Part shown: positions 1 through 12,261 of the stretch, piece after piece
Numbering within the stretch: position 1 is the stretch's first letter
Layout: each line of letters starts with the position of its first letter
NCBI GenBank assembly: GCA_002296885.1
Contig: DBIH01000159.1
Location: 1-12,475 of the forward strand
Direction: 5' to 3'
DNA length: 12,475 nt
Source of the DNA: Flavobacterium sp. UBA807
GTDB taxonomy: Bacteria; Bacteroidota; Bacteroidia; Flavobacteriales; Flavobacteriaceae
Position numbers and translations under genes: made by a program
The notes under the pieces: generated by a model
The model's input: the letters and a program-made list of their open reading frames with translations, nothing else
What the model was told of the DNA's origin: nothing
Databases searched by the model: none

Positions 1-887
1 AAAGGGAGGATTGATTCGCCTGAGCGCAAAGCATCAAGAAGTGGAATTTCCGAATTAGAGAAAAGGCAGTTCTTCAATTTCCCGTCAGCAGTTAAACGGA
101 TGCGGTTGCAGGTACTGCAAAACGGATTGGTAACCGAACTGATAATGGCAAAGCTTCCCAAATGCGATTTTATCTTAAAGTTTTTAGCCGTATCATTCGG
201 CGCATCTTCTAATCGTTCTATTTCGGAAATGCTATATTCGGATTTAATGGTTTCCATGATTTCGGCATAGGAAACCAATTTCGACTTATCCCACTGATTG
301 CCATTGAATGGCATGAATTCTATAAAACGGATTTGAATTTTTTTATTTTTTGTTTTCGAAATAAAATCAAGTATTTCATTGTCATTAAATGACTTGATTA
401 AAACTACATTAAGTTTAACATTAAATTTTTCTTCCAGCAATAAATCGATATTTTTCTGAACAATATCAAAATAATTACGCCTTGTGATAGTGTTGAATTT
501 GTCTTTTATCAAACTGTCAATGCTTATATTTACCGTTTTAATTCGGGCTTCTTTAAATGTTTCGATAAAATCTGAAACCAGAATTCCGTTAGTTGTGATT
601 GATAAATTAACATCAAGCTTTCCCAATCGAAGTATAATTTCCTTAACATCTTTTCTAATCAAAGGCTCGCCACCCGTCAATCTGATTTTAGTTACGCCAA
701 GATTCACAAAGGTTTGTGCAATTGAAATGATTTCATCTACAGTCATCAAATGTGGTTTTGGCGTTAGCTTTATTCCTTCTTCAGGCATGCAATAGGCGCA
801 TCTGAGGTTACAGTGTTCCGTAACCGAGATACGCAAATAATCGTGTTTGCGTCCAAAACCATCCTGCAAAAGATTATTATTTTCCAT
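1..887 (-). CDS. moaA: GTP 3',8-cyclase MoaA (radical SAM), 3' end cut by window
   Basis: MoaA catalyses the first step of molybdenum cofactor synthesis, the radical-SAM rearrangement of GTP that MoaC then converts to cyclic pyranopterin monophosphate. I translated the minus strand from the ATG at 887 to the window edge and found 295 uninterrupted codons. The SAM-cluster motif C26-x3-C30-x2-C33 is present, followed by the RLTGGEPL segment near residue 66. The second, GTP-binding cluster motif C257-x2-C260-x13-C274 is also present. MoaA proteins are usually about 320-330 residues, so some 30 residues, including the C-terminal Gly-Gly tail, lie beyond position 1. The start overlaps the end of the moaC-moaB fusion by 11 bases, which suggests translational coupling as the last visible gene of the Moco operon. 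Identification is firm; only the C-terminus is unseen. Confidence 0.96.
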   Translation of the reverse strand, partial: MENNNLLQDGFGRKHDYLRISVTEHCNLRCAYCMPEEGIKLTPKPHLMTVDEIISIAQTFVNLGVTKIRLTGGEPLIRKDVKEIILRLGKLDVNLSITTNGILVSDFIETFKEARIKTVNISIDSLIKDKFNTITRRNYFDIVQKNIDLLLEEKFNVKLNVVLIKSFNDNEILDFISKTKNKKIQIRFIEFMPFNGNQWDKSKLVSYAEIMETIKSEYSISEIERLEDAPNDTAKNFKIKSHLGSFAIISSVTNPFCSTCNRIRLTADGKLKNCLFSNSEIPLLDALRSGESILP

Positions 888-1791
888 GATCAAATCCATT
901 CAACAATTGAAATAAATGCAAAATTGCCGGAAAAACCGCATCTATTGATTCAGCTGCACCATTAGCTGAACCAGGCAAAGCCATGAGTAAAGTTTCGTCT
1001 TTAAAACCAACTACACTTCGAGATAACATCGCAAACGGCGTACGCTGCTGACCATAAGAACGAATAGCTTCCTCAACTCCCAGAATCCTTCGTTCAATAA
1101 ACGGAGTAATCGCTTCGGGAGTAATGTCTTTGCTAGAAAGACCCGTTCCGCCCGTCAGGATAATCAGATTGGTCTTTACATCACAAAGTTGCTGCACATT
1201 AGCCTGAATAACCTGGATATCATCTGAAACAACCAGATAATCCGAAACCGAAAGTCCTAATTTTTCCAGTTTTTCAGATATGACCTTTCCTGATTTATCT
1301 TCTTTCTTACCTGAAGAAACACTGTCAGAACAAACTATGACAGCAATTTTTAAACTCTGACTGTCTTTTATTTTATGATCTGACTTTCCTCCTTTTTTGT
1401 GTATTAGTTTTACTGTCGAAATTTCAACATTCGTATCAATCGGTTTTAGCATATCATACATAGTCAGCGCCACTATTGACGCGCCATGCATAGCTTCGAC
1501 TTCAACACCGGTTTTGTAAATTGTTTTGACTGTAACCTCTATTTTGATTGCATTTTCAAGGCATTCAAACTCTATTCCTGTATATTCAATCGGTATTGGA
1601 TGACAATCCGGAATAACACTCGAAGTATTCTTAACTGCAAACAATCCGGCTGTTCTTGAAACTTCCAGCACATTCCCTTTCGGAACCGTATTATCCAAAA
1701 CAGCCTTTATGGTTTCAGCCGAACCAACCTTGACAATTGCCTGAGCAACCGCAGTTCTCAGCGTAGTGGTTTTATGTGTGATATCAACCAT
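877..1791 (-). CDS. moaCB: Bifunctional MoaC-MoaB/Mog fusion (cPMP synthase + molybdopterin adenylyltransferase-type domain)
   Basis: This 304-residue protein joins two Moco enzymes. Residues 1-140 are MoaC, which forms cyclic pyranopterin monophosphate from the MoaA product. K54 (AVKNT), H64 (IPDCHPIP), D113 and K116 (YDMLK) and GGKS at 134-137 match its active-site blocks. Residues about 147-300 are a MoaB/MogA domain that adenylylates molybdopterin before metal insertion. It carries LTGGTGLSSKDITPEA (212-227) and ALPGSANGAAE (271-281). MoaC/MoaB fusions are a known architecture. The start ATG directly abuts the moaE stop (TAAATG), and the stop lies inside moaA. The residue before the CHP motif is Asp, where E. 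coli MoaC has Leu. The joined activities are not consecutive steps, since MoaD/MoaE act between them. No separate mog or moaB is visible, so the fusion probably supplies both functions. Confidence 0.95.
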   Translation of the reverse strand: MVDITHKTTTLRTAVAQAIVKVGSAETIKAVLDNTVPKGNVLEVSRTAGLFAVKNTSSVIPDCHPIPIEYTGIEFECLENAIKIEVTVKTIYKTGVEVEAMHGASIVALTMYDMLKPIDTNVEISTVKLIHKKGGKSDHKIKDSQSLKIAVIVCSDSVSSGKKEDKSGKVISEKLEKLGLSVSDYLVVSDDIQVIQANVQQLCDVKTNLIILTGGTGLSSKDITPEAITPFIERRILGVEEAIRSYGQQRTPFAMLSRSVVGFKDETLLMALPGSANGAAESIDAVFPAILHLFQLLNGFDHGK

Positions 1792-2238
1792 TTATGTGTT
1801 CTTTTTCCATATATAACTTTTGTCTTCAAAGATTTCCTTGCCAAATATGGGAACTTTTTCTTTTATTTCTTCCACCAAAAACTCCAATGCTTCATAGGTT
1901 ACTTTTCTTCTTGGTGCAGAAACAAAGACAAACAGGCAAATTTCACCAGTTTTAACCAAGCCCAGACTGTGATAAATATGCAGACAGGACAATTCATATT
2001 TGGCAAAAGCCGCTTCCCTGATTTCATAAAAGCTTTGCTCTGCCATTTCCTCATATGCTGAATACTCAATAGCCACAATATTCTTTCCGTCAATTTCATC
2101 CGCACGAACCTGACCAAGGAAAATATTGTGTGCACCAATTGTTGTCTTGCTTTGGTGCTTCGCAATCGAATTCCCGATAAACTCTGAGGAAATCGCACCC
2201 TGAACAAATGAGGCTTTTTTTGGTTTGTCAGCTATCAT
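1792..2238 (-). CDS. moaE: Molybdopterin synthase catalytic subunit MoaE
   Basis: MoaE is the large subunit of molybdopterin synthase. It transfers two sulfurs from thiocarboxylated MoaD onto cyclic pyranopterin monophosphate to form the dithiolene of molybdopterin. The 148-residue length fits the family. Recognisable segments are GAHNIFLGQVR (35-45), IEYSAYEEMA (57-66), IYHSLGLVKTGE (88-99), and the C-terminal catalytic block EEIKEKVPIFGKEIFED (123-139). That block contains the conserved lysines (K126 and K134 by alignment to memory of E. coli K119/K126). The start overlaps the upstream moeB-like gene by 11 bases and the stop touches the moaC-moaB start, so all three are probably translated from one message. 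The ATG at 2238 gives the expected N-terminus, and no upstream in-frame alternative is needed. Confidence 0.94.
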   Translation of the reverse strand: MIADKPKKASFVQGAISSEFIGNSIAKHQSKTTIGAHNIFLGQVRADEIDGKNIVAIEYSAYEEMAEQSFYEIREAAFAKYELSCLHIYHSLGLVKTGEICLFVFVSAPRRKVTYEALEFLVEEIKEKVPIFGKEIFEDKSYIWKKNT

Positions 2239-2953
2239 TTAATTTAACTTTATAGTTTTGAAATTCAATAGTCTGAAGACAATTATCTAAACTATTATAT
2301 AATAATAATTTACCGCTCAGAATTTCACCTATTCCTAAAATAATTTTCAGTACTTCGTTTGCCTGAAGCGTTCCTAAAATGTTTGGTAAAACTCCCAAAA
2401 CTCCCGAATCATTACAACTCGGAATTGCGTCAGCTCTTTCATCTTCAGGAAACAAACAACGGTATGTTGGTCCGTTTTGATAGTTAAAGACCGAAAGCTG
2501 TCCTTCAAACTTATGAATTGAAGCATAAACCATCGGAATACCTTTGATTACAGCAATATCATTAATCAGATAGCGGGTCGTAATATTATCGGTGCAATCG
2601 ACTATGATTTGATAATCAGAAGCAATTTCAAAAGCGTTTTCTTTTGTAAAAGAAAACGGATACGGCGTTATTATTACTTCCGGATTTTGTCTGACTACAG
2701 CTTCTGAAGCAACATCTACTTTACTTTTCCCCAAATCAGTTGGCGTGTACAATAACTGGCGGTGCAGATTAGTTTCCTCAACAAGATCCCCATCGACGAT
2801 TCCGATTTTCCCAACACCAACTGCTGCCAGATTTTGCAAAACCGGACAACCCAATCCTCCGACACCAATAATTAAAACCTTCGCTTCAGCAAGTTTTAGC
2901 TGTCCAAGAATTCCAATTTCAGGCAATGTAATCTGTCTATCGTATCGTTTCAT
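2228..2953 (-). CDS. moeB: MoeB/ThiF/HesA-family MoaD-activating adenylyltransferase
   Basis: E1-like enzyme expected to adenylylate the C-terminal glycine of MoaD so that it can be thiocarboxylated. The Rossmann ATP site is GVGGLG (30-35). The LHRQ arginine (63-66) and VDCTDN (118-123) are the usual nucleotide and Mg contacts, and PSCNDSGVLG (178-187) matches the conserved crossover-loop region. At 241 residues it is a short form with no rhodanese domain. The zinc-binding tetracysteine of E. coli MoeB looks absent: only C166 remains of the first CxxC pair (T163-Y-R-C166), and there is no C-terminal CxxC. The gene lies between moaD and moaE, with a 13-base gap to moaD, which strongly favours MoeB over ThiF (thiamine) duty. 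A dual role is possible. Confidence 0.87.
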   Translation of the reverse strand: MKRYDRQITLPEIGILGQLKLAEAKVLIIGVGGLGCPVLQNLAAVGVGKIGIVDGDLVEETNLHRQLLYTPTDLGKSKVDVASEAVVRQNPEVIITPYPFSFTKENAFEIASDYQIIVDCTDNITTRYLINDIAVIKGIPMVYASIHKFEGQLSVFNYQNGPTYRCLFPEDERADAIPSCNDSGVLGVLPNILGTLQANEVLKIILGIGEILSGKLLLYNSLDNCLQTIEFQNYKVKLNDS

Positions 2954-2966
2954 TTGGATTTAAAAT

Positions 2967-3209
2967 TTATCCTCCGGCAAAGGGGGGCAGTAAAGCTATA
3001 ATGTCGTCTTTTTCTAATAAAAAATCATTTTGTAAGAATTTCTGATTTACAGCTATTGAATATTTAATATCCAGTATTTTAGGGTATTTTATTTCAATTT
3101 TAGATTGCAATAATTTTAATGTAATTGTATCTTCTTCAACAAAAAACAACTCTTCCTTTTTTTGGGTAATATCCGCTATAATTCCGAAATATTTCAGTTT
3201 TAATTCCAT
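2967..3209 (-). CDS. moaD: Molybdopterin synthase sulfur carrier subunit MoaD
   Basis: Small ubiquitin-fold sulfur carrier of molybdopterin synthase. It begins MELKLKYFGIIADITQK and ends in the diagnostic LLPPFAGG, whose terminal Gly-Gly is adenylylated by the neighbouring MoeB-like protein and then carries the thiocarboxylate. At 80 residues it has normal length. I chose the ATG at 3209. An in-frame TTG one codon earlier (3212) would add a residue but is a poorer start. The gene is 6 bases downstream of the TauE/SafE-type permease and 13 bases upstream of the moeB-like gene, in the middle of the Moco operon. Sequence similarity in MoaD/ThiS proteins is low, so the assignment rests on size, GG tail, fold-typical pattern and position beside moeB and moaE. 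ThiS is the only realistic alternative. Confidence 0.92.
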   Translation of the reverse strand: MELKLKYFGIIADITQKKEELFFVEEDTITLKLLQSKIEIKYPKILDIKYSIAVNQKFLQNDFLLEKDDIIALLPPFAGG

Positions 3210-3215
3210 CAAAAA

Positions 3216-3962
3216 TCAAGTTGTATATAATTTAAAAACAGCTATTAATAAAACTATAGCGAGCACATTTCTGAGCACAATCGTATTCATCTTTTTACTT
3301 CCGAAATAGCCTCCTATAATTCCGCCCAATAAAGCAACGCCAATTAACGAAACTGACGATACAGGCAATGTTCCGCCTTTTGACAGAAAACCAAAAAGCC
3401 CCGAAATGGAGTTCGCAAAAATAAACAATGCCGAAACAGCTGCGCTCTTTTTGATATCTGCCCATCTCAAAAGCAGCAATATCGGGCTCAAAATAATTCC
3501 GCCTCCAATACCAATCAAACCTGATAAAAGTCCGATTACAGCTCCAATAACCAATGCTAACGGAATATCAATAGGTTTTAATTCTCCTTTTTGTTTTCCG
3601 AATAAACCCAGCAATCTTGCGACTGCAAAGAGTAAAACCGTTGCCAGTATTATTTTGTAAACATGAGTTTCAATTGTTATGATTCCACCAATAAATGAAA
3701 ACGGAATCGATGTTATCGCAAACGGATAAAACAGTTTCCACTCAAACTTCTTTTCCCGAAAATAAAAGAAAAACGAAATTGCCGATACCAAAATATTCAG
3801 TACCAGAGCTGTTGGTTTCATAACCGTTACCGGAAACGCAAACAGACTCATCAAGGCGAGATAACCACTGGCTCCGCCATGCCCTACACTGGCATAGAGA
3901 AAAGCCACAAGCAGTAATAAAACTAATAATATCGGAGACTGTATAAGTTCGCCTGAAAGCAT
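3216..3962 (-). CDS. TauE/SafE (DUF81) family membrane permease
   Basis: Inner-membrane protein of 248 residues, with about seven to eight hydrophobic segments (near residues 10-28, 36-65, 78-98, 104-123, 135-165, 172-196, 203-222 and 228-246). It shows the two half-repeats typical of TauE/SafE proteins: SVGHGGASGYLALM (25-38) in the first half and GLIGIGGGIILSPILLLL in the second (about 148-165). Characterised relatives export sulfite or organosulfonates, or move other small anions. The substrate cannot be read from sequence. It is embedded between moeA (46-base gap) and moaD (6-base gap), so it is co-transcribed with Moco genes and may serve the pathway's sulfur or oxyanion handling. No ModABC molybdate importer is in the window. 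Family assignment is strong; the role is inference. Confidence 0.86.
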   Translation of the reverse strand: MLSGELIQSPILLVLLLLVAFLYASVGHGGASGYLALMSLFAFPVTVMKPTALVLNILVSAISFFFYFREKKFEWKLFYPFAITSIPFSFIGGIITIETHVYKIILATVLLFAVARLLGLFGKQKGELKPIDIPLALVIGAVIGLLSGLIGIGGGIILSPILLLLRWADIKKSAAVSALFIFANSISGLFGFLSKGGTLPVSSVSLIGVALLGGIIGGYFGSKKMNTIVLRNVLAIVLLIAVFKLYTT

Positions 3963-4008
3963 ATTTTAAAAAATTTAACGAACCGTAAATATAACGACAA
4001 TTCTTTTT

Positions 4009-5178
4009 CTAAATGAGATATACCGAAACTTTATCGCCTTTTAATAATTGATAATTTCCTTCAGGAATGTATACCAGAGCATTAGCAATTGAAAAGGAAT
4101 TCAGCATTCCCGAATCCTGATGTGATAAAATTTCAACCTCATTTTCTGTAGCTGAAGCTTTTAAAAATTGGCTTCGTGGATTGTCAACCGGAAAATCATG
4201 GGATAAATGCTTCTTCAAATCGGAACCGTATTTGTATTTCATTTCCGAACGCCTTTGCAATGTTGGCAGCACATAGACATAAAAACACGTCAGGCTGGCC
4301 GCAGGATTTCCGGGTAAGGCAAATATGATTTTATCATTTTGTTTACCAACCAGCAAAGGTTTTCCGGGTTTTTGATTGACTTTATAAAACAGTGTTTCCA
4401 CTTCCAAACTCTCCAAAGCTTTCCCGACAAAATCATAATCCCCAACCGATATTCCACCTGAAATCAAGACAACATCATTTTCATTAATTGCTTTTTCCAA
4501 TGTGCTTTTAGTACTTTCAAAATCATCGTTTACTTTGTAAAGTGAAACTGTATCAAAATCTGCATCAAATAAAGCTGTTTGTAGCATTATTGCGTTGCTT
4601 TCGTATACTTTTCCGTTTGGCAGAATTTCTCCCGCTGAGACAAGCTCATTTCCGGTTACTATGATTCCAATAGTTGGTTTTTGAAAAACATTGACTTTCG
4701 TAAATCCCAAACCGGTTAAAAATCCTATCGCTGCCGGATTTAAGAATGCTCCTTTTTCCAAGGCTGCATCGTCTTTTTTAATCTGTGCTCCGAGTTGACG
4801 AATATTAGTCTCGGGACTCAGGTTTTCATCAAATAATACTTCACTGCCTTTTAGAGTTGCTTTTTCAATTTGTATTACGGTCTGCGCCGAATTAGGGACT
4901 GCGGCACCAGTGAATATTTTTACCGCCTGACCGGGTTTTAATTGCTTATCGAAAAAATCTCCTGCTTTTACTTCACCAACAATTTCATAGTGCAGCGAAT
5001 TATGCAAACAAACTGCAAAACCATCCATGGTAGCTTGACGAAACGGAGGCATATTGATTGGCGAAAAAACGGTTTCCGCTAAAACGTGGTTTCGTGCTTC
5101 AAACAACGGCAATTCTACAATTCTTTTGGAATAGCTTAGTTTATCTAAAATTGCAAAAGCTTCTTCGGGAGTAGTCAT
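4009..5178 (-). CDS. moeA: Molybdopterin molybdenumtransferase MoeA
   Basis: MoeA inserts molybdate into adenylylated molybdopterin, releasing AMP and giving active Mo-cofactor. The 389 residues show the family blocks in order: PPFRQATMDGFAV (44-56), the FTGAAVP loop (89-95), TGNELV (175-180), SGGISVGDYDFV (240-251), NQKPGKPLLVG (268-278) and ALPGNPAAS (287-295). A C-terminal beta-rich domain (MoeA domain IV) reaches the end. Size is normal for a stand-alone MoeA, with no fused MogA domain. Its ATG overlaps the xdhC stop in an ATGA junction (5175-5178), which implies coupled translation with xdhC and ties this Moco operon to a xanthine-dehydrogenase-type enzyme. The likely partner for the adenylated substrate is the MoaB/Mog half of the fusion downstream. 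Confidence 0.95.
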   Translation of the reverse strand: MTTPEEAFAILDKLSYSKRIVELPLFEARNHVLAETVFSPINMPPFRQATMDGFAVCLHNSLHYEIVGEVKAGDFFDKQLKPGQAVKIFTGAAVPNSAQTVIQIEKATLKGSEVLFDENLSPETNIRQLGAQIKKDDAALEKGAFLNPAAIGFLTGLGFTKVNVFQKPTIGIIVTGNELVSAGEILPNGKVYESNAIMLQTALFDADFDTVSLYKVNDDFESTKSTLEKAINENDVVLISGGISVGDYDFVGKALESLEVETLFYKVNQKPGKPLLVGKQNDKIIFALPGNPAASLTCFYVYVLPTLQRRSEMKYKYGSDLKKHLSHDFPVDNPRSQFLKASATENEVEILSHQDSGMLNSFSIANALVYIPEGNYQLLKGDKVSVYLI

Positions 5179-6083
5179 CGATTTTGGTTTTTGACTCTGA
5201 TTAATTGTGCGGCAACACTAATTGCGATTTCCTGAGTAGTTTCGCTTTTGATATCGATTCCGATTGGCGCATACACTCTGGCAATATTATCTTTATTAAA
5301 ACCATCGGCAATCATATTTTGGAACAAAGTCGCGATCTTTTCCTTACTGCCTAACAACCCAATATATTTAAAGTTTTTATCAATCAATTTTCTGATGATG
5401 ATATCATCGGTTCGATAACCAAAAGACATGATGACCACATAAATATTCCCGCCTTCCGGAACATATTTATCAATTTCTTCAAAATCAACGATTTGCTTTG
5501 TAGCTACAAAATTGTTCTGCTCCATCGTATTCAGGTTCTCACGATGATCGAAGATATGGATTTCAAAATCGAGTTTTGATAGCGTTTCGCTCAATGCCAG
5601 ACCCACATGACCGCCGCCAATGACATACACTTTCTGCGGAAGCGAATTGGTTTCTGTAAAAGACCATTCTGCTGTTTCTGATGGAACATTGATTCCTAAA
5701 TTGTTATAAATAATCTCGAAATTTTCTTCGGTTATGATTTGATTCAGTAATGGAAGAAAATTGGAGTTAATATCATAAAAAGCAATCGTCTGCTGACCAG
5801 AACATATCATCCCCGATTGGTCTTTCGGTGCCGATTTATCGTGAATCTGATGTTTTATGAATGGTTCAAAAGAAGGTTTGTCCAAAAGTGATTCAGCGAA
5901 CTCAACTAACTTGTGCTCCATGATTCCGCCACCAATGGTCCCGTACATTTGGTTTTTGGTCACCAACATTTTGAAACCTTTCCTGCCCGGACTGCTGCCT
6001 TCGTTGGAAATCACTATCATCAACACCAATCGTTTTTCAACCTGGAGTATTTCAGAAAGTTTTTTATAGAAATCGAGCGTCAT
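5175..6083 (-). CDS. xdhC: XdhC/CoxI-family molybdoenzyme maturation factor
   Basis: XdhC-type proteins bind Moco, help its sulfuration and insert it into xanthine-dehydrogenase-family enzymes. From the ATG at 6083 the protein has 302 residues. The N-terminal XdhC/CoxI domain includes EGSSPGRKGFKM (28-39), GTIGGGIMEHKL (48-59) and MICSGQQ (92-98). The C-terminal Rossmann-like domain has VYVIGGGHVG (152-161), then IMSFGYRTDD (218-227), GLLGSKEKI (242-250) and YAPIGIDIKSETTQEIA (271-287). An upstream in-frame ATG at 6218 would add 45 residues that do not look like XdhC and would run across the divergent promoter into allantoinase, so I rejected it. It is the first gene of the leftward operon and joins moeA by an ATGA overlap. 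No xanthine dehydrogenase subunit is in the window, so its client must lie elsewhere. Confidence 0.92.
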   Translation of the reverse strand: MTLDFYKKLSEILQVEKRLVLMIVISNEGSSPGRKGFKMLVTKNQMYGTIGGGIMEHKLVEFAESLLDKPSFEPFIKHQIHDKSAPKDQSGMICSGQQTIAFYDINSNFLPLLNQIITEENFEIIYNNLGINVPSETAEWSFTETNSLPQKVYVIGGGHVGLALSETLSKLDFEIHIFDHRENLNTMEQNNFVATKQIVDFEEIDKYVPEGGNIYVVIMSFGYRTDDIIIRKLIDKNFKYIGLLGSKEKIATLFQNMIADGFNKDNIARVYAPIGIDIKSETTQEIAISVAAQLIRVKNQNR

Positions 6084-6100
6084 TATTTGCTGTAATCGTT

Positions 6101-6140
6101 TTGCCAAAATTAACTTTTTATCCTTAAGTTTGTACGTTTG
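6101..6140 (+). promoter_or_regulatory. Candidate promoter of the urate/allantoin operon
   Basis: TTG at 6101-6103 and TAAGTTTG at 6125-6132 are separated by 21 bases and fit the flavobacterial promoter pattern TTG-N17-23-TAnnTTTG. A second overlapping match, TACGTTTG at 6133-6140, follows immediately but has no correctly spaced TTG. Transcription would begin shortly before the allantoinase ATG at 6165, so any leader is short. The rightward TTG and the leftward -7 candidate (6105-6112) are adjacent, so the two divergent promoters could interfere or share one regulator. Confidence 0.45.
6105..6112 (-). promoter_or_regulatory. Candidate -7 box for the xdhC-moa operon
   Basis: On the minus strand these bases read TAATTTTG, an exact match to the Bacteroidota -7 consensus TAnnTTTG, 22 bases ahead of the xdhC ATG. 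I do not see a TTG -33 element at the expected 17-23 base spacing, so only half of a promoter is supported. The 81-base divergent gap leaves little other room for the leftward promoter. Confidence 0.35.
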
Positions 6141-6164
6141 CCTTTCGGGTAAATCCAAAATAAA

Positions 6165-7487
6165 ATGCAAGACAGAAAAATATACAGTAATCGCGTTTGG
6201 GTTAATGACAAACTGCAACCTGCAACATTAACTTTTAACGAAGGAATCACCTCAATAGAATTCAATAAATCAGCCGATGCTGAAGATTATGGCAATGCCG
6301 TAATAATGCCGGGCGTTATTGATGTTCATGTTCACATCAATGAACCGGGAAGAACCGAATGGGAAGGTTTTGAAACCGCGACTCAGGCAGCGGCTGCAGG
6401 AGGTTCAACAACTATTATTGATATGCCATTGAATGCGAGTCCGGTGACAACAACGCCCGATGCTTTCAATCAAAAACTCGATGCTTCGAAAGGCAAAATG
6501 AATGTCAATGTTGGTTTTTATGCCGGATTGATTCCGGGAAATGCCAGACATTTAGATGCACTGATTGATGCCGGAGTAGTTGGTGTAAAATGTTTCCTAA
6601 CGCATTCGGGCATTGATGAATTCCCAAATGTTACCGAAAAGGATTTGGACGAAGCGATGCCAATCATTGCCAAACACAACATTCCATTATTAGCGCATTG
6701 TGAATTATATGAAACCGAAGTTGATTGTGATTTTAACAATAATCCGACAAGCTATCAACATTATCTGGCGAGCCGACCAAAGAAATGGGAAAATGACGCT
6801 ATCGATTTGATGATAAAAATGTGCCGCAAACACAACTGCCCGGTGCATATCGTTCACGTTGCATCCGCGGAAGCGTTAGCCATGATTGAAGCTGCTAAAA
6901 AAGAAGGTTTACCGATTACAGCCGAAACCTGCACGCAATATATTTTCTTTAATGCCGAAGATATTCCCGATGCTAACTGCATTTACAAATGTGCGCCGCC
7001 AATCCGTGAAAAGGCAAACAACGAGCAATTGAAACACGCTTTTACAACCGGCGTTTTAGATTTCCTCACAACCGACCACTCGCCTGCTCCGCCGAATATT
7101 AAGGAAATAGAAACCGGAAATCTAAAGAAAGCCTGGGGCGGAATTGCAGGAATTCAGTTCTTATTAACGGCTTCATGGACTGCTTTGAAAGATACAATGA
7201 AACTCGAGCAATTTATTCCGTTAGTAACTTCAAAACCAGCGCATTTTATTAAGGCTGATAAGAAGGGTGAATTCAAAATTGGCAACGATGCCGATATCGT
7301 CATCTGGAATCCCGACGCAAACGATGTCGCAAAACCTGAAGACATTTTTTTCAGATATAAAATAAGTCCATATATTGCGCAAAACTTAAACGGAAAAGTG
7401 CTTGAAACCATAGTAAACGGCGCGACTGTTTATCAGAATAAATCAATACAAAACAAAAATAAAGGACAATGGCTTTTACAAAAGTAA
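6165..7487 (+). CDS. allB: Allantoinase (dihydroorotase-like amidohydrolase)
   Basis: Hydrolyses allantoin to allantoate. The 440-residue protein is a cyclic amidohydrolase with its metal ligands in place: DVHVH (53-57; H55, H57), the probable carbamylated lysine K142 in GVKCFLTHSGI, H178 in LLAHCE, H231 in VHIVHVAS (227-234), and D304 in TTDHSP (302-307). The MPGVIDVHVHINEPGRTEWEG stretch (48-68) and the GVKCF motif distinguish allantoinases from hydantoinases and dihydroorotases, and the next gene being allantoicase supports this. It is the first gene of the rightward block, starting 81 bases from divergent xdhC. Its 3' end overlaps allantoicase by 19 bases. The gene symbol follows the bacterial allB convention; the subclass was not verified by alignment. 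Confidence 0.94.
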   Translation: MQDRKIYSNRVWVNDKLQPATLTFNEGITSIEFNKSADAEDYGNAVIMPGVIDVHVHINEPGRTEWEGFETATQAAAAGGSTTIIDMPLNASPVTTTPDAFNQKLDASKGKMNVNVGFYAGLIPGNARHLDALIDAGVVGVKCFLTHSGIDEFPNVTEKDLDEAMPIIAKHNIPLLAHCELYETEVDCDFNNNPTSYQHYLASRPKKWENDAIDLMIKMCRKHNCPVHIVHVASAEALAMIEAAKKEGLPITAETCTQYIFFNAEDIPDANCIYKCAPPIREKANNEQLKHAFTTGVLDFLTTDHSPAPPNIKEIETGNLKKAWGGIAGIQFLLTASWTALKDTMKLEQFIPLVTSKPAHFIKADKKGEFKIGNDADIVIWNPDANDVAKPEDIFFRYKISPYIAQNLNGKVLETIVNGATVYQNKSIQNKNKGQWLLQK

Positions 7488-8491
7488 CCGAGATTATAAA
7501 AGAATCACCTGCATTTACAGCATTAACCGACTTAGCAGCAGAGCGATTGGGCGGAAAGGTTTTATATGCAACCGATGATTTCTTTGCTGAAAAAGAAAAC
7601 TTAATACTTCCAACACGCGGTATTTTTATTCACGATAAATATACCGACCGCGGAAAATGGATGGACGGCTGGGAAAGCCGCAGAAAAAGAACTCCGGGAC
7701 ACGACTGGGCGGTAATCCAACTGGGAGTTTCGGGAAAGATTACCGGTTTTGATATTGATACCAATTTCTTTTTGGGAAATCATCCGCCACATTGTTCGAT
7801 TGAAGCAGTGAATCTTCCCGAAGGTTATAAAACTTCGGATTGGGAGGATGTGGCATGGACAGAGATTCTCCCAAAATCACATCTGGATGCGGGTTCACAG
7901 AATTTCTACGAATGCAAAAGCGATGAAATTTACACCCACTTACGTTTACATATTTATCCTGATGGTGGCGTTGCACGTTTCCGTGTTTATGGTGAAGTTT
8001 TCAAAAACTGGAACTCGGTTTCGCCTTCAGAGGAAATCGATTTAGCTGCAGCAATCAACGGCGGACAGGCAATTGCCTGCAATGATATGTTCTTTAGTGC
8101 AATGAGTAATCTGATTATGCCAAACCGTGGCGCGAACATGGGCGATGGTTGGGAAACTAAACGTAACCGAACTCCAAACAACCGTGACTGGGTGATTTTG
8201 AAACTGGCTCACAAAGGAACCGTTGACAGAATCGTTGTGGATACCTGTCACTTCAAAGGTAATTATCCTGATAGCTGTTCTATTGAATGCTGCACGAGCG
8301 ATAATGATGAAGCCGTAATCAAAAATGGTTACTGGCAGACTTTATTGCCTCAGCAAAAATTGAGCGCCGATAACGAACACGAATTTGTAAAAGAAATAAA
8401 TGCTCACGACGGCATCACGCATGTCAGACTAAACATCTTCCCTGATGGTGGTGTAAGTCGTTTGAGATTGTTTGGTAAAATCAGTAAATAG
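7469..8491 (+). CDS. alc: Allantoicase (allantoate amidinohydrolase)
   Basis: Splits allantoate into urea and (S)-ureidoglycolate. The 340-residue protein consists of two homologous allantoicase repeats. The first spans about residues 22-165 and includes GGKVLYATDDFFAEKENL (28-45), GWESRRKR and DTNFFLGN. The second spans about 190-338, with ACNDMFFSAMSNLIMPNRG, GWETKRNRTPNNRDW and DTCHFKGNYPDSCSIE. Each repeat closes with a matching HxRLxIxPDGGVxRxRxxG segment. The ATG at 7469 is preceded by an AAAGGA stretch (7461-7466) and lies inside the allantoinase gene (19-base overlap). Its TAG stop overlaps the GTG start of the next gene by one base. Use of allantoicase rather than allantoate amidohydrolase means nitrogen leaves as urea. 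No urease or ureidoglycolate lyase of a familiar type is present here. Confidence 0.95.
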   Translation: MAFTKVTEIIKESPAFTALTDLAAERLGGKVLYATDDFFAEKENLILPTRGIFIHDKYTDRGKWMDGWESRRKRTPGHDWAVIQLGVSGKITGFDIDTNFFLGNHPPHCSIEAVNLPEGYKTSDWEDVAWTEILPKSHLDAGSQNFYECKSDEIYTHLRLHIYPDGGVARFRVYGEVFKNWNSVSPSEEIDLAAAINGGQAIACNDMFFSAMSNLIMPNRGANMGDGWETKRNRTPNNRDWVILKLAHKGTVDRIVVDTCHFKGNYPDSCSIECCTSDNDEAVIKNGYWQTLLPQQKLSADNEHEFVKEINAHDGITHVRLNIFPDGGVSRLRLFGKISK

Positions 8492-9909
8492 TGGCAATAA
8501 GTACTTTTGTAATAATCGTTCTGTATGTAATTGAATTCAGTGTATTAATTACACTGGGATACATCTCATACAAAATGCCGAACATCCTAAAGGGAAAATC
8601 CCAGAAAAATCCGGAAGGCGACGCTGACATCCGAAACATTAGCATGAATTATATTTATGTCGGAATGCTGCTGATGATCGTTGGGATTTTGGTCAATACT
8701 TATATACTTGTAAAAGGAACACCGCTCGAAGCACACATGATGGAATGGCTAAACATTGTCATCCGATTGATGCATATTACCTTCGGAATTGCCTGGATTG
8801 GTGCTTCGTTTTACTTTGTTTTCCTTGAAAATGCCTTAAACCGTACCGAAGATGTGCGCGATGAATTAGCTGGAAACCTTTGGGCTGTTCATGGTGGCGG
8901 ATTTTATTATCTGGAGAAATATAAAGTCGCTCCAAAGACCATCCCGAAACATTTGCACTGGTTTAAATACGAAGCCTATTTTACTTGGCTTACCGGTTTT
9001 TGTCTGTTGTTTGTGGTCTATTATTTCAATGCTTCAGCTTTTTTAATCGATAAGAATGTATTGGATATTACCGCGACTCAGGGAATTTTAATTGGAGTAA
9101 GTTCGTTTATAGTTGCGTGGCTGATTTATGATCGAATGTGTAAATCATCCTTAATCAAAAATCAAACAGCATTTGCAGTAATTGGATTTATTTTCCTGAT
9201 TGCGTTTGCTTTCTTTTATTGCCATGTATTTAGCGCCCGTGCGGCTTATATCCACTTTGGAGCGATGATCGGAAGTATCATGGTGGCGAATGTGTTCTTT
9301 GTGATTATACCGGGACAAAAAGAAATGGTACGTTGTGCCAAACTGGGGATTCCATTGGATCCGAGTCTGGGTAAAAAAGCGCTTGCACGTTCATTACATA
9401 ATAATTATTTCACCTTACCGGTTTTGTTTGTGATGGTCAGCAATCACTTCCCTTCTACCTTTGGATATGAATATCCATGGTTGATGCTGGCGGTTATCTC
9501 ATTAGGTGCAGCCGGTGTAAAACATTATCTGAACTTAAAGGAAAAACAACAACTGAATGTTTGGATACTTCCTGTTTCCGTAGTAATTTTATTAGCTGCC
9601 TGCTTTATTTCGGCTCCAAGTACCGATCCGTATGAGTGTAAAAAAGAAGTAAGCATTCAGGAAGTTCAGGCGATTGTGCAGAAACGTTGTGTGCAATGCC
9701 ACTCTTCTAACCCAACGGATGATGTTTATAAAACCGCTCCAAATGGTGTGAAATATGACACCCCGCAGGATATTTACAATAAGAAAGACTTGATTCTTCA
9801 GCGCGTGGTTGTGACTAAAACAATGCCTCAAAACAACAAAACCAATATCACAGAAGAAGAACGAAATACCATCCGTTGTTGGATTGAACAAGGTGCGAGC
9901 CTAAAATAA
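8491..9909 (+). CDS. puuD: Membrane urate oxidase PuuD with C-terminal cytochrome c domain
   Basis: Integral-membrane urate oxidase that converts urate to 5-hydroxyisourate and passes electrons to a heme rather than directly to oxygen. The N-terminal part (about residues 1-375) has eight to ten hydrophobic segments. It carries PuuD-type motifs: MMEWLNIVIRLMHITFGIAW (83-102), WIGASFYFVFLENAL (102-116), LWAVHGGGFYYLEKYK (130-145), HWFKYEAYFTWLTGF (156-170) and SLHNNYFTLPVLFVMVSNH (301-319). The C-terminal tail (about 385-472) is a small cytochrome c with CVQCH (400-404), and M445 in TMPQNN is the likely sixth heme ligand. The start is GTG, overlapping the allantoicase TAG by one base; the next ATG (M29) would destroy the first membrane helix. 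The last helix ends in a lipobox-like LAAC (368-371). Confidence 0.9.
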   Translation: MAISTFVIIVLYVIEFSVLITLGYISYKMPNILKGKSQKNPEGDADIRNISMNYIYVGMLLMIVGILVNTYILVKGTPLEAHMMEWLNIVIRLMHITFGIAWIGASFYFVFLENALNRTEDVRDELAGNLWAVHGGGFYYLEKYKVAPKTIPKHLHWFKYEAYFTWLTGFCLLFVVYYFNASAFLIDKNVLDITATQGILIGVSSFIVAWLIYDRMCKSSLIKNQTAFAVIGFIFLIAFAFFYCHVFSARAAYIHFGAMIGSIMVANVFFVIIPGQKEMVRCAKLGIPLDPSLGKKALARSLHNNYFTLPVLFVMVSNHFPSTFGYEYPWLMLAVISLGAAGVKHYLNLKEKQQLNVWILPVSVVILLAACFISAPSTDPYECKKEVSIQEVQAIVQKRCVQCHSSNPTDDVYKTAPNGVKYDTPQDIYNKKDLILQRVVVTKTMPQNNKTNITEEERNTIRCWIEQGASLK

Positions 9910-9916
9910 ATGAGAT

Positions 9917-10765
9917 ATGAATTTATTAGCATTTAATAATTTACCTAAAGAATCGGCAAAAAAGGAATTATTCGCCTGCTGTGGTTCGGAGAAATGGGCA
10001 TCGGCGATGATGAAGCACTTTCCTTTTGTATCTGAAAAGCAGTTAGTGGATTTGTCTTCCAAAATATGGTATGATGAATGCGGCGAAGCCGACTGGCGCG
10101 AATCGTTTACGCACCATCCAAAGATTGGTGATGTGAAGAGTTTAACCGAAAAGTTTGCCGGAAAGGAACAAGCCGGAGTTGCTGTTGCGACTTCTGAAAC
10201 GATTGAAGCTCTCGCTAAAGCCAATACTGACTATGAAAACAAAAACGGATTCATCTTTATTGTCTGTGCTACCGGGAAATCGGCGGATGAAATGCTGGCA
10301 TTACTGAATGACCGATTACAGAATACTGCCGAGGAAGAACTACATATTGCAATGGGTGAACAACAGAAAATTTCCATCATCCGTTTTAAAAAGATGCTGC
10401 CTGACGGTGATTTCAGTTTCCTGAAAGTAAGCCAGATTACAACACATGTTTTAGATACCTCAACGGGAATTCCCGGAAAGGATATTTCGATACGATTGCA
10501 GGCATTCAGAAACGGAAGCTGGCAGACCATAACTCAAGGCATTACGAATAGTGACGGACGAATTCCTGATTTATTGGCTCCGGACAAAAACCTAAAGCCT
10601 GACACGTATAAAATGGTTTTCGACACCGAAAGCTATTATTCAAAGAGCAAGACTAAGACCTTTTATCCAAAAGTGGAAATCATTTTCAGCACTTTTGACG
10701 AAACACATTATCACGTACCTTTGTTGATCAATCCTTTTGGATATAGTACTTATCGCGGTAGCTAA
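9917..10765 (+). CDS. Bifunctional OHCU decarboxylase / 5-hydroxyisourate hydrolase (allantoin synthase-like)
   Basis: This 282-residue fusion performs the two steps after urate oxidation. Residues 1-165 are OHCU decarboxylase (UraD-like), with HHPKIGD (66-72; H67 probable catalytic), GKEQAGV (82-88) and NGFIFIVCATGKS (110-122). Residues 172-282 are a transthyretin-related HIU hydrolase (UraH-like), with SQITTHVLDTSTGIPG (172-187; H177), SDGR (212-215; R215), YHVPLLINPFGYSTY (265-279; H266) and the terminal YRGS signature. The domain order resembles plant allantoin synthase, and the hydrolase acts first on the PuuD product. There is no signal peptide, so it is probably cytoplasmic. The gene starts 7 bases after puuD and clearly belongs to the same operon. 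An earlier ATG at 9910 is out of frame and hits a stop within nine codons. Confidence 0.94.
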   Translation: MNLLAFNNLPKESAKKELFACCGSEKWASAMMKHFPFVSEKQLVDLSSKIWYDECGEADWRESFTHHPKIGDVKSLTEKFAGKEQAGVAVATSETIEALAKANTDYENKNGFIFIVCATGKSADEMLALLNDRLQNTAEEELHIAMGEQQKISIIRFKKMLPDGDFSFLKVSQITTHVLDTSTGIPGKDISIRLQAFRNGSWQTITQGITNSDGRIPDLLAPDKNLKPDTYKMVFDTESYYSKSKTKTFYPKVEIIFSTFDETHYHVPLLINPFGYSTYRGS

Positions 10766-10926: not shown

Positions 10927-12261
10927 ATGACAATTCCTAATAATAAAAAAGAGCAACTGTTTAACAGTTTAAGCAAAGCGAATAATGCTTTCAACGAAAT
11001 ATATCCGGGTGACCGAAGCGACCGTCAGCCAGTGCATACCTTATATGGTGGAGCGAACCTTTTCAAATCGGATGCGCCGATTGCATTGGGACACCGTGCT
11101 TTGGAAATATTGCAAACCTATGCGCCTAATCATGAAGTTTTCGGAAAAGCATTTGGCCTGACGGGTGGCAGCGATTTCAGCAAAAAGATTTATGATAAGG
11201 TCGTAGCCAAATTAAAATCGGAGGCGATTGAAGATTTCCGTATCGATTTTGAAGACGGTTACGGAAACCGAAGCAATGAAGAAGAAGATGCAACGGCTGA
11301 AAGTACGGCTAAAGAAGTTGCCAAAGGAATGGTTGACGGAACACTTTCGCCTTTTATTGGTATCCGTATCAAACCGTTTACCGAAGATATGAGAGACAGA
11401 GGTTTACGTACTTTGGACATTTTCATAACAACCTTAATCAAGGAAACCGGTGGAAAATTACCGGATAACTTTGTGGTGATGCTACCAAAAGTTACCATTC
11501 CGGAGCAACCGGAAACTCTGGCTAATTTCTTTACGATTTTGGAAGAAGAATTAGGTTTGGCGAAAGGAACGTTGAAAATGGAAATGATGGTGGAAACTAC
11601 GCAGGCCATTATGGATATTGCGGGAACGAATCCTTTATACCGATTCATTAAAGCGGCTCAGGGAAGATGCGTTGCGATGCACTTTGGAACCTATGATTAT
11701 ACGGCAAGCTGCAGCATTACGGCAAAATACCAGGAAATGAATCACCCGGTTTGCGATTTTGCGCACAACGTAACTAAAGTTGCACTGGCGCACACCGGAA
11801 TCTGGCTGAGCGATGGTGCTACGAATACGATGCCTATTGGACCGCACAGAGGCGATTTAACTCCGGCACAGGAAAAAGAAAATATGGAAGTGGTTCACAG
11901 AGCCTGGAAAAAAGGTTACGACCACATTCGTCACTCATTGTGGAATGGATTTTATCAAGGCTGGGATTTGAATCCGGCACAGTTCCCAATGCGATATGCC
12001 GCAGTATATGCGTTCTTTCTAGAAAGCTACGACGATGCGGTGGATCGTTTGAAAACCTTTGTGGAAAAAGCAGCACGTGCGACTTTGATTGGGGACGTAT
12101 TTGACGATGCCGCAACCGGACAGGGATTATTGAACTATTTCCTTCGCGCGTTAAACAGTGGTGCAATTACAGAGGAAGAAGTTTTAGCCACCGGATTGAC
12201 CTTAGAGGAAATCAGAGGGCGATCATTTAAGAAGATTTTGGAGAACAGAGCGGCGAAGTAA
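10927..12261 (+). CDS. CitE/malate-synthase-like TIM-barrel protein (HpcH/HpaI superfamily, probably DUF6986)
   Basis: A 444-residue protein whose exact reaction I cannot name. The core looks like the PEP/pyruvate-dependent TIM-barrel superfamily (citrate lyase beta subunit, malate synthase, HpcH/HpaI aldolases): FRIDFEDGYG (104-113), GIRIKP (145-150; R147), MLPKVT (185-190), MEMMVETTQAIMD (218-230; probable metal ligands E219/E223) and MHFGTYDYTAS (251-261; D257). A GGANLFKSD segment (41-49) near the N-terminus and a helical C-terminus with GQGLLNYFLRA (398-408) and LTLEEIRGRSF (424-434) are extra to CitE. It ends the purine block, so ureidoglycolate cleavage or glyoxylate condensation is plausible. 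Similar proteins are sometimes labelled phosphoenolpyruvate kinase, which I consider unsupported. It follows the structured element by 33 bases and may be transcribed from the operon or on its own. No signal peptide or membrane segment. Confidence 0.8.
   Translation: MTIPNNKKEQLFNSLSKANNAFNEIYPGDRSDRQPVHTLYGGANLFKSDAPIALGHRALEILQTYAPNHEVFGKAFGLTGGSDFSKKIYDKVVAKLKSEAIEDFRIDFEDGYGNRSNEEEDATAESTAKEVAKGMVDGTLSPFIGIRIKPFTEDMRDRGLRTLDIFITTLIKETGGKLPDNFVVMLPKVTIPEQPETLANFFTILEEELGLAKGTLKMEMMVETTQAIMDIAGTNPLYRFIKAAQGRCVAMHFGTYDYTASCSITAKYQEMNHPVCDFAHNVTKVALAHTGIWLSDGATNTMPIGPHRGDLTPAQEKENMEVVHRAWKKGYDHIRHSLWNGFYQGWDLNPAQFPMRYAAVYAFFLESYDDAVDRLKTFVEKAARATLIGDVFDDAATGQGLLNYFLRALNSGAITEEEVLATGLTLEEIRGRSFKKILENRAAK

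Follow-up and report, generated by a model that had tools for sequence, protein, structure and literature searches.

A DUF6986 protein of the CitE/malate synthase superfamily as a probable ureidoglycolate lyase in a Flavobacterium purine-degradation cluster

The locus and its last gene

The stretch of DNA analysed here (12,475 nucleotides; hereafter the window) corresponds to a single contig from a Flavobacterium metagenome-assembled genome (MAG; G000, 83% complete), and carries a cluster of purine-degradation genes that ends in a gene for a DUF6986 protein (10927-12261). Judging from sequence comparison and gene content, we consider that this gene probably encodes a urea-releasing, Mg-dependent (S)-ureidoglycolate lyase (the EC 4.3.2.3 reaction) that belongs to the CitE/malate synthase superfamily and is non-homologous to AllA/DAL3. 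What supports the proposed EC 4.3.2.3 activity is genomic context and complementarity with AllA.

The protein matches PF22484 (DUF6986), described in Pfam as a domain of unknown function, over the whole domain (residues 15-437, profile positions 1-408 of 408; 602.8 bits against a cut-off of 27). Matches to the malate synthase TIM barrel PF01274 (residues 182-265 only, 84 residues; 28.3 bits, barely above the cut-off of 26.4) and to PF03328 (HpcH/HpaI), which falls just short (24.4 bits against 25), are confined to a short part of the barrel. At E 0.01 or better no malate synthase equivalog model was passed, the only models to match being haloarchaeal AceB with 17.3 of 780 bits and malyl-coenzyme A (CoA) lyase with 24.2 of 500 bits, and PF04115 (AllA) is absent at E 0.01. 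The protein is a member of the CitE/malate synthase superfamily with a TIM barrel fold, and a preliminary description of this DNA, which had called it a CitE/malate-synthase-like TIM barrel, was correct in this respect: it is a full-length DUF6986 member in which the superfamily catalytic residues are present. Homologues bear NCBI names such as phosphoenolpyruvate kinase and aldolase/citrate lyase family protein; nothing in our analysis backs the first of these.

The DUF6986 gene is the last of its cluster, with genes for AllB, allantoicase, PuuD and OHCU decarboxylase/5-hydroxyisourate hydrolase (HIUase) upstream on the same strand (Table 1), and the cluster therefore spans the pathway from urate to ureidoglycolate. 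Profile searches thus bear out the earlier claim that the rightward block encodes every one of these steps. It had also been claimed that no AllA-type lyase or canonical malate synthase is recognisable there, and in the MAG, at its 83% completeness, PF04115 indeed has no match and PF01274 matches just the DUF6986 gene, with no other malate synthase. The C-terminal cytochrome c match of the urate oxidase is weak (PF13442, 17.8 bits, under the cut-off).

Divergent from the cluster, an XdhC-like gene adjoins a series of open reading frames (ORFs; window 3-5178, minus strand) that resemble a molybdenum cofactor cluster (MoaA-, MoaC/MogA-, MoaE-, ThiF/MoeB- and MoeA-like, named by eye) and include a TauE-like permease; the profile check in this part covered just TauE and XdhC. 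Such a cluster beside XdhC fits a supply of cofactor to xanthine dehydrogenase.

Table 1 Features of the window
Feature	Position	Strand	Evidence and remarks
XdhC-like xanthine dehydrogenase maturation factor	5175..6218	-	PF13478, PF02625; divergent from cluster
AllB allantoinase	6165..7487	+	TIGR03178 481.6 bits, cut-off 357.85
Allantoicase (product: ureidoglycolate + urea)	7469..8491	+	TIGR02961 439.4 bits, cut-off 277.9
Membrane urate oxidase, PuuD type	8491..9909	+	PF06181 406.2 bits
Fused OHCU decarboxylase + HIUase	9917..10765	+	PF09349, PF00576, TIGR03180, TIGR02962
DUF6986 protein (444 aa)	10927..12261	+	ATG start, intact ORF; proposed ureidoglycolate lyase

Gene neighbourhoods and the two routes to ureidoglycolate

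The neighbourhoods of relatives were drawn from a profile scan of a genome collection, and comprise the best 80 of 566 confirmed loci together with five plasmid loci (85 in all). A purine-degradation gene lies within 10 kb of DUF6986 in 70 of the 80 loci and within 1 kb in 65, while six of the ten loci that have none within 10 kb lie 2 kb or less from a contig end. Across the 85 neighbourhoods we find OHCU/HIUase in 71, allantoinase in 58, allantoicase in 45 and PuuD in 44, whereas AceB occurs in none, GlcB in one, and glyoxylate carboligase (Gcl) is represented by one weak match (25%); searches for this last enzyme and for ureidoglycolate dehydrogenase were confined to the relatives' neighbourhoods. 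Clustering of 1091 ORFs yielded no further unassigned family recurring in at least six loci and no other recurrent glyoxylate-using gene, and for three ORF clusters that matched no reference, names were given by eye (xanthine dehydrogenase subunit, deaminase-like and uricase-like).

Allantoicase on the one hand, and allantoate amidohydrolase (AAH) with ureidoglycine aminohydrolase (UGHY) on the other, provide alternative routes to (S)-ureidoglycolate. A count of the two kinds of neighbour, as had been suggested, found both: besides the allantoicase loci, AAH occurs in 16 of the 85 neighbourhoods and UGHY in 16 (14, plus two through a second reference), the two together in 15. The product of allantoicase is ureidoglycolate (PMC3793230), and the pairing of DUF6986 with both routes argues that the enzyme would act at or after this shared product. 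On a tree of DUF6986 (97 rows) the route changes four times, the starred branches require at least three changes of the UGHY label, and the allantoicase loci L064, L068, L069 and L074 are nested amid AAH/UGHY loci. This tree was built rapidly and its branches are long, the AAH/UGHY label was assigned by UGHY alone, and one of the route changes depends on an actinomycete (Tsukamurella, L016) without an AAH match.

Complementarity with AllA

Complementarity was assessed in draws from two phyla, comprising 198 Bacteroidota genomes (that of the window included) and 149 Acidobacteriota genomes. In the Bacteroidota, DUF6986 exceeds the cut-off in 11 genomes and allantoicase in seven, all of them within the 11, and none of the five genomes with AllA possesses either. 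The four DUF6986 genomes without allantoicase are G072, G166 and G091, which have an AAH/UGHY cluster, and G156, which has no purine neighbour. In the Acidobacteriota, DUF6986 matches 44 genomes at E 0.001, 18 over the cut-off and 13 as whole genes (E below 1e-100), weak or partial matches being dropped, and allantoicase is over the cut-off in nine (G321, at 24.6 bits, lies under it and was dropped from the counts). A whole DUF6986 gene is present in six of these nine, in four of them on the same contig; G362 and G349 have fragments only, on the cluster contig, and in G349 allantoicase is in three pieces and the DUF6986 piece is under the cut-off (25.3 bits). The remaining genome, G382, has no DUF6986; there, about 60 nt separate allantoicase from AllA, which lies downstream of it. 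Taking both draws together, DUF6986 is found in 15 of the 16 allantoicase genomes (13 whole, two as fragments), AllA in one, and both in none. DUF6986 and AllA are therefore complementary in two phyla and, together with the purine genes near 70 of the 80 loci, this upholds the view that the gene sits in the gap between ureidoglycolate and glyoxylate.

DUF6986 pieces, without a whole gene, are seen beside or near purine clusters at L130 (9488-10044) and L131 (13671-13805), in two Acidobacteriota genomes, owing to decay or to assembly.

The suggestion that genomes with homologues lack an AllA-type lyase is also borne out, AllA occurring in none of the 85 neighbourhoods and in one (G244) of the 49 genomes searched among those of 50 of the 80 loci. 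The AllA-like protein of G244 (L104 1435-1890, minus strand; PF04115, 61 bits) lies beside nuoD- and nuoH-like genes, named by eye, and is probably not a purine gene. In plasmid records listed for both genes, allA adjoins allantoicase in ten (Vibrio, Pseudomonas, Phyllobacterium, Caballeronia, Acinetobacter); 13 Sinorhizobium records, likewise listed for both, have their best AllA place at a great distance from allantoicase, and a second AllA place exists in every one of them.

Active-site residues and predicted structure

E219, E223, D257 and R147 are invariant in all 65 aligned DUF6986 rows. The Glu and Asp that bind Mg in this superfamily correspond by alignment to E223 and D257, which align with AceB of E. 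coli (E250 and D278) and, assuming a chain offset of 21 residues, with Glu141 and Asp168 of malyl-CoA lyase 4l9y, given as Mg ligands in PMC3832036. The counterpart of E219 is a nearby Glu, not the ligand; hence of the metal ligands first proposed (E219/E223 and D257), E223 and D257 are retained and E219 is not. By motif and strand order, DFED (E109, D110) and R147 match DFED and R166 of AceB, and would supply a Glu-Asp pair for the waters of the Mg ion and an active-site arginine, the role for which R147 had been put forward.

Comparison of the predicted structure with solved ones places its fold nearest to malyl-CoA lyase, and 3qqw and 3r4i, of unassigned function, are also near. In the model, helices 368-387 and 395-411 are joined by a seven-residue loop (388-394) without strands, and no C-terminal lid beta-hairpin covering CoA is seen in this monomer prediction, the loop/lid region of which is its less confident part (predicted local distance difference test, pLDDT, 74-77). 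Malate synthases and malyl-CoA lyases carry a CoA-contacting beta-hairpin in the lid, according to PMC3832036 and PMC3112382. As regards the active-site comparison called for at the outset, the metal and arginine residues are kept and the CoA-contacting hairpin is missing from the model.

If the enzyme is a lyase, Mg2+ would be held by E223 and D257, with waters held by E109/D110, and would bind ureidoglycolate through its carboxylate and its C2 hydroxyl, in the way that malyl-CoA lyase binds its own substrate. R147 may take or stabilise the hydroxyl proton, a retro-aldol-like cleavage of the C-N bond would leave Mg-bound glyoxylate, and a lid acid (D394 or D393) could protonate the leaving ureide to give urea. 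The reaction would correspond to the glyoxylate half of that catalysed by malyl-CoA lyase, urea taking the place of the acyl-CoA enolate.

Alternative explanations

Several observations weigh against a ureidoglycolate lyase. Ureidoglycolate also decays without an enzyme, so a lyase is not strictly needed. The 80 loci, selected by their likeness to the window and related to one another, do not sample the family evenly, and AllA is uncommon in both phyla in any case (5/198 Bacteroidota, 2/149 Acidobacteriota); consequently, complementarity rests mostly on the link between allantoicase and DUF6986 and on one exchange. In the even draw of Acidobacteriota, six of the 13 whole DUF6986 genes are in genomes with allantoicase and one (G379) lies beside OHCU/HIUase, yet the other six are in genomes without allantoicase and show no purine reference gene up to about 8 kb away. 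These six are G292 and G331 (53-54% identity) and the branch formed by G339, G363, G281 and G371 (41-42%); none was found over that distance in the Bacteroidota genome G156 (34%) either, nor within 12 kb at a Nonomuraea locus (L020). The role of the family need not, therefore, be uniform. Furthermore, features tied to CoA enzymes in the superfamily (W346, P350, D394) are retained, canonical malate synthase was not found in 32 of the 49 DUF6986 genomes, leaving scope for a glyoxylate-using role, and a strong urease match (E below 1e-50), taken as a possible sign of urea release, is present in just 13 of the 73 genomes searched and is lacking in the window's own. These 13 comprise eight of the 16 genomes with the AAH/UGHY route and five of the 57 others, G055 and G246 probably being one genome counted twice.

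At L118, L119, L120, L121 and L125 the DUF6986 gene is diverged (34-42% identity) and no purine reference gene lies closer than about 8 kb; diverged members of this kind possibly act on another substrate. On the Gordonia polyisoprenivorans plasmid p174 (L019 11971-17892), a DUF6986 gene is directly 5' of a urease operon, with no other purine reference genes nearby.

Of the two reactions offered in the preliminary description, a malate synthase and a ureidoglycolate-processing enzyme, the absence of overlap between DUF6986 and AllA in the 16 allantoicase genomes favours the latter. A new malate synthase or malyl-CoA lyase-like enzyme, joining the glyoxylate of the pathway to acetyl-CoA while the splitting of ureidoglycolate is spontaneous or falls to a lyase that has escaped notice, seems unlikely. 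It would account for the retained catalytic residues, including a lid motif, FDDAAT, that resembles MEDAAT of malate synthases, and for the 32 genomes without canonical malate synthase, as well as the window's own genome, where DUF6986 itself is the sole match. However, canonical malate synthase (PF01274, E below 1e-40; weaker matches, mostly the DUF6986 genes themselves, were dropped) is present in 17 of the 49 genomes, so that DUF6986 is not its general stand-in, and the expectation that homologue genomes lack the classical enzyme holds for part of them. It is also present in six of ten purine-linked Bacteroidota, in three of six Acidobacteriota with allantoicase and whole DUF6986, and in G382, where the exchange for AllA would in any case be unexpected of a malate synthase. 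The predicted loop 388-394 in place of the hairpin further argues against a malate synthase, as does Glu at position 394, that of the catalytic base, in five of the 65 rows, though Glu is known there from one CitE-like group (PMC3832036). A glyoxylate-shunt malate synthase was rejected as the main role: isocitrate lyase also occurs in 17 of the 49 genomes, 16 of them shared with malate synthase, and 31 have neither.

An aldolase that clears toxic glyoxylate by joining it to a non-CoA acceptor, e.g. pyruvate, draws on the resemblance to HpcH/HpaI, the nearness of 3qqw and 3r4i and the lack of another recurrent glyoxylate gene, but leaves both the AllA exchange and co-occurrence with malate synthase unexplained, and we regard it as distinctly improbable. 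Very little credit is due to a single enzyme for two steps, which would release urea from ureidoglycolate and then condense Mg-bound glyoxylate with acetyl-CoA to malate without letting go of the toxic aldehyde; such an enzyme would account for the genomes without malate synthase, the missing glyoxylate gene and the conservation of W346, P350 and D394. Route convergence and co-location would equally suit a different outcome, e.g. epimerisation of ureidoglycolate or an action on ureidoglycine, yet DUF6986 occurs both with and without the ureidoglycine route and the superfamily makes or breaks bonds beside glyoxylate-like groups and hydrolyses thioesters (PMC3832036), and we give this very little credence.

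Implications and comparison with known systems

Were a ureidoglycolate lyase confirmed, a function would be assigned to a large family (at least 7999 homologues scored) whose members bear names such as phosphoenolpyruvate kinase, and a gap in purine catabolism would be closed in Bacteroidota, Acidobacteriota, some Actinomycetota and other groups. Ureidoglycolate lyase would then have arisen a second time, independently, on a C-C lyase scaffold associated with CoA substrates that has come to cleave a C-N bond. In the literature searched, to which subscription papers and preprints did not belong, the term DUF6986 was not found, and none of the top-ranked titles and abstracts connects ureidoglycolate with DUF6986 or with a CitE-like protein. 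Arthrobacter sp. Rue61a is reported to grow on allantoin, and in its genome candidate genes for converting allantoate into glyoxylate “were not obvious” (PMC3534580). DUF6986 is carried by a Paenarthrobacter plasmid.

Malyl-CoA lyase (4l9y, 5ugr) and CitE-like lyases, human CLYBL among them, share 17-18% identity with DUF6986, which differs from them in its purine gene context and, in the model, in lacking the lid beta-hairpin. With malate synthases A, G and haloarchaeal, DUF6986 shares the TIM barrel core and the DFED, VET, DY, W-P and (E/D)DAAT motifs, whereas the predicted structure has neither the large N-terminal domain of these enzymes nor their lid hairpin, and such enzymes coexist with DUF6986 in the genomes noted above. 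AllA/DAL3 (PF04115) catalyses the reaction proposed here for DUF6986, and follows allantoicase in the sole allantoicase genome without DUF6986; AllA is nickel-dependent (PMC3793230), whereas DUF6986 appears to possess a Mg-type CitE site.
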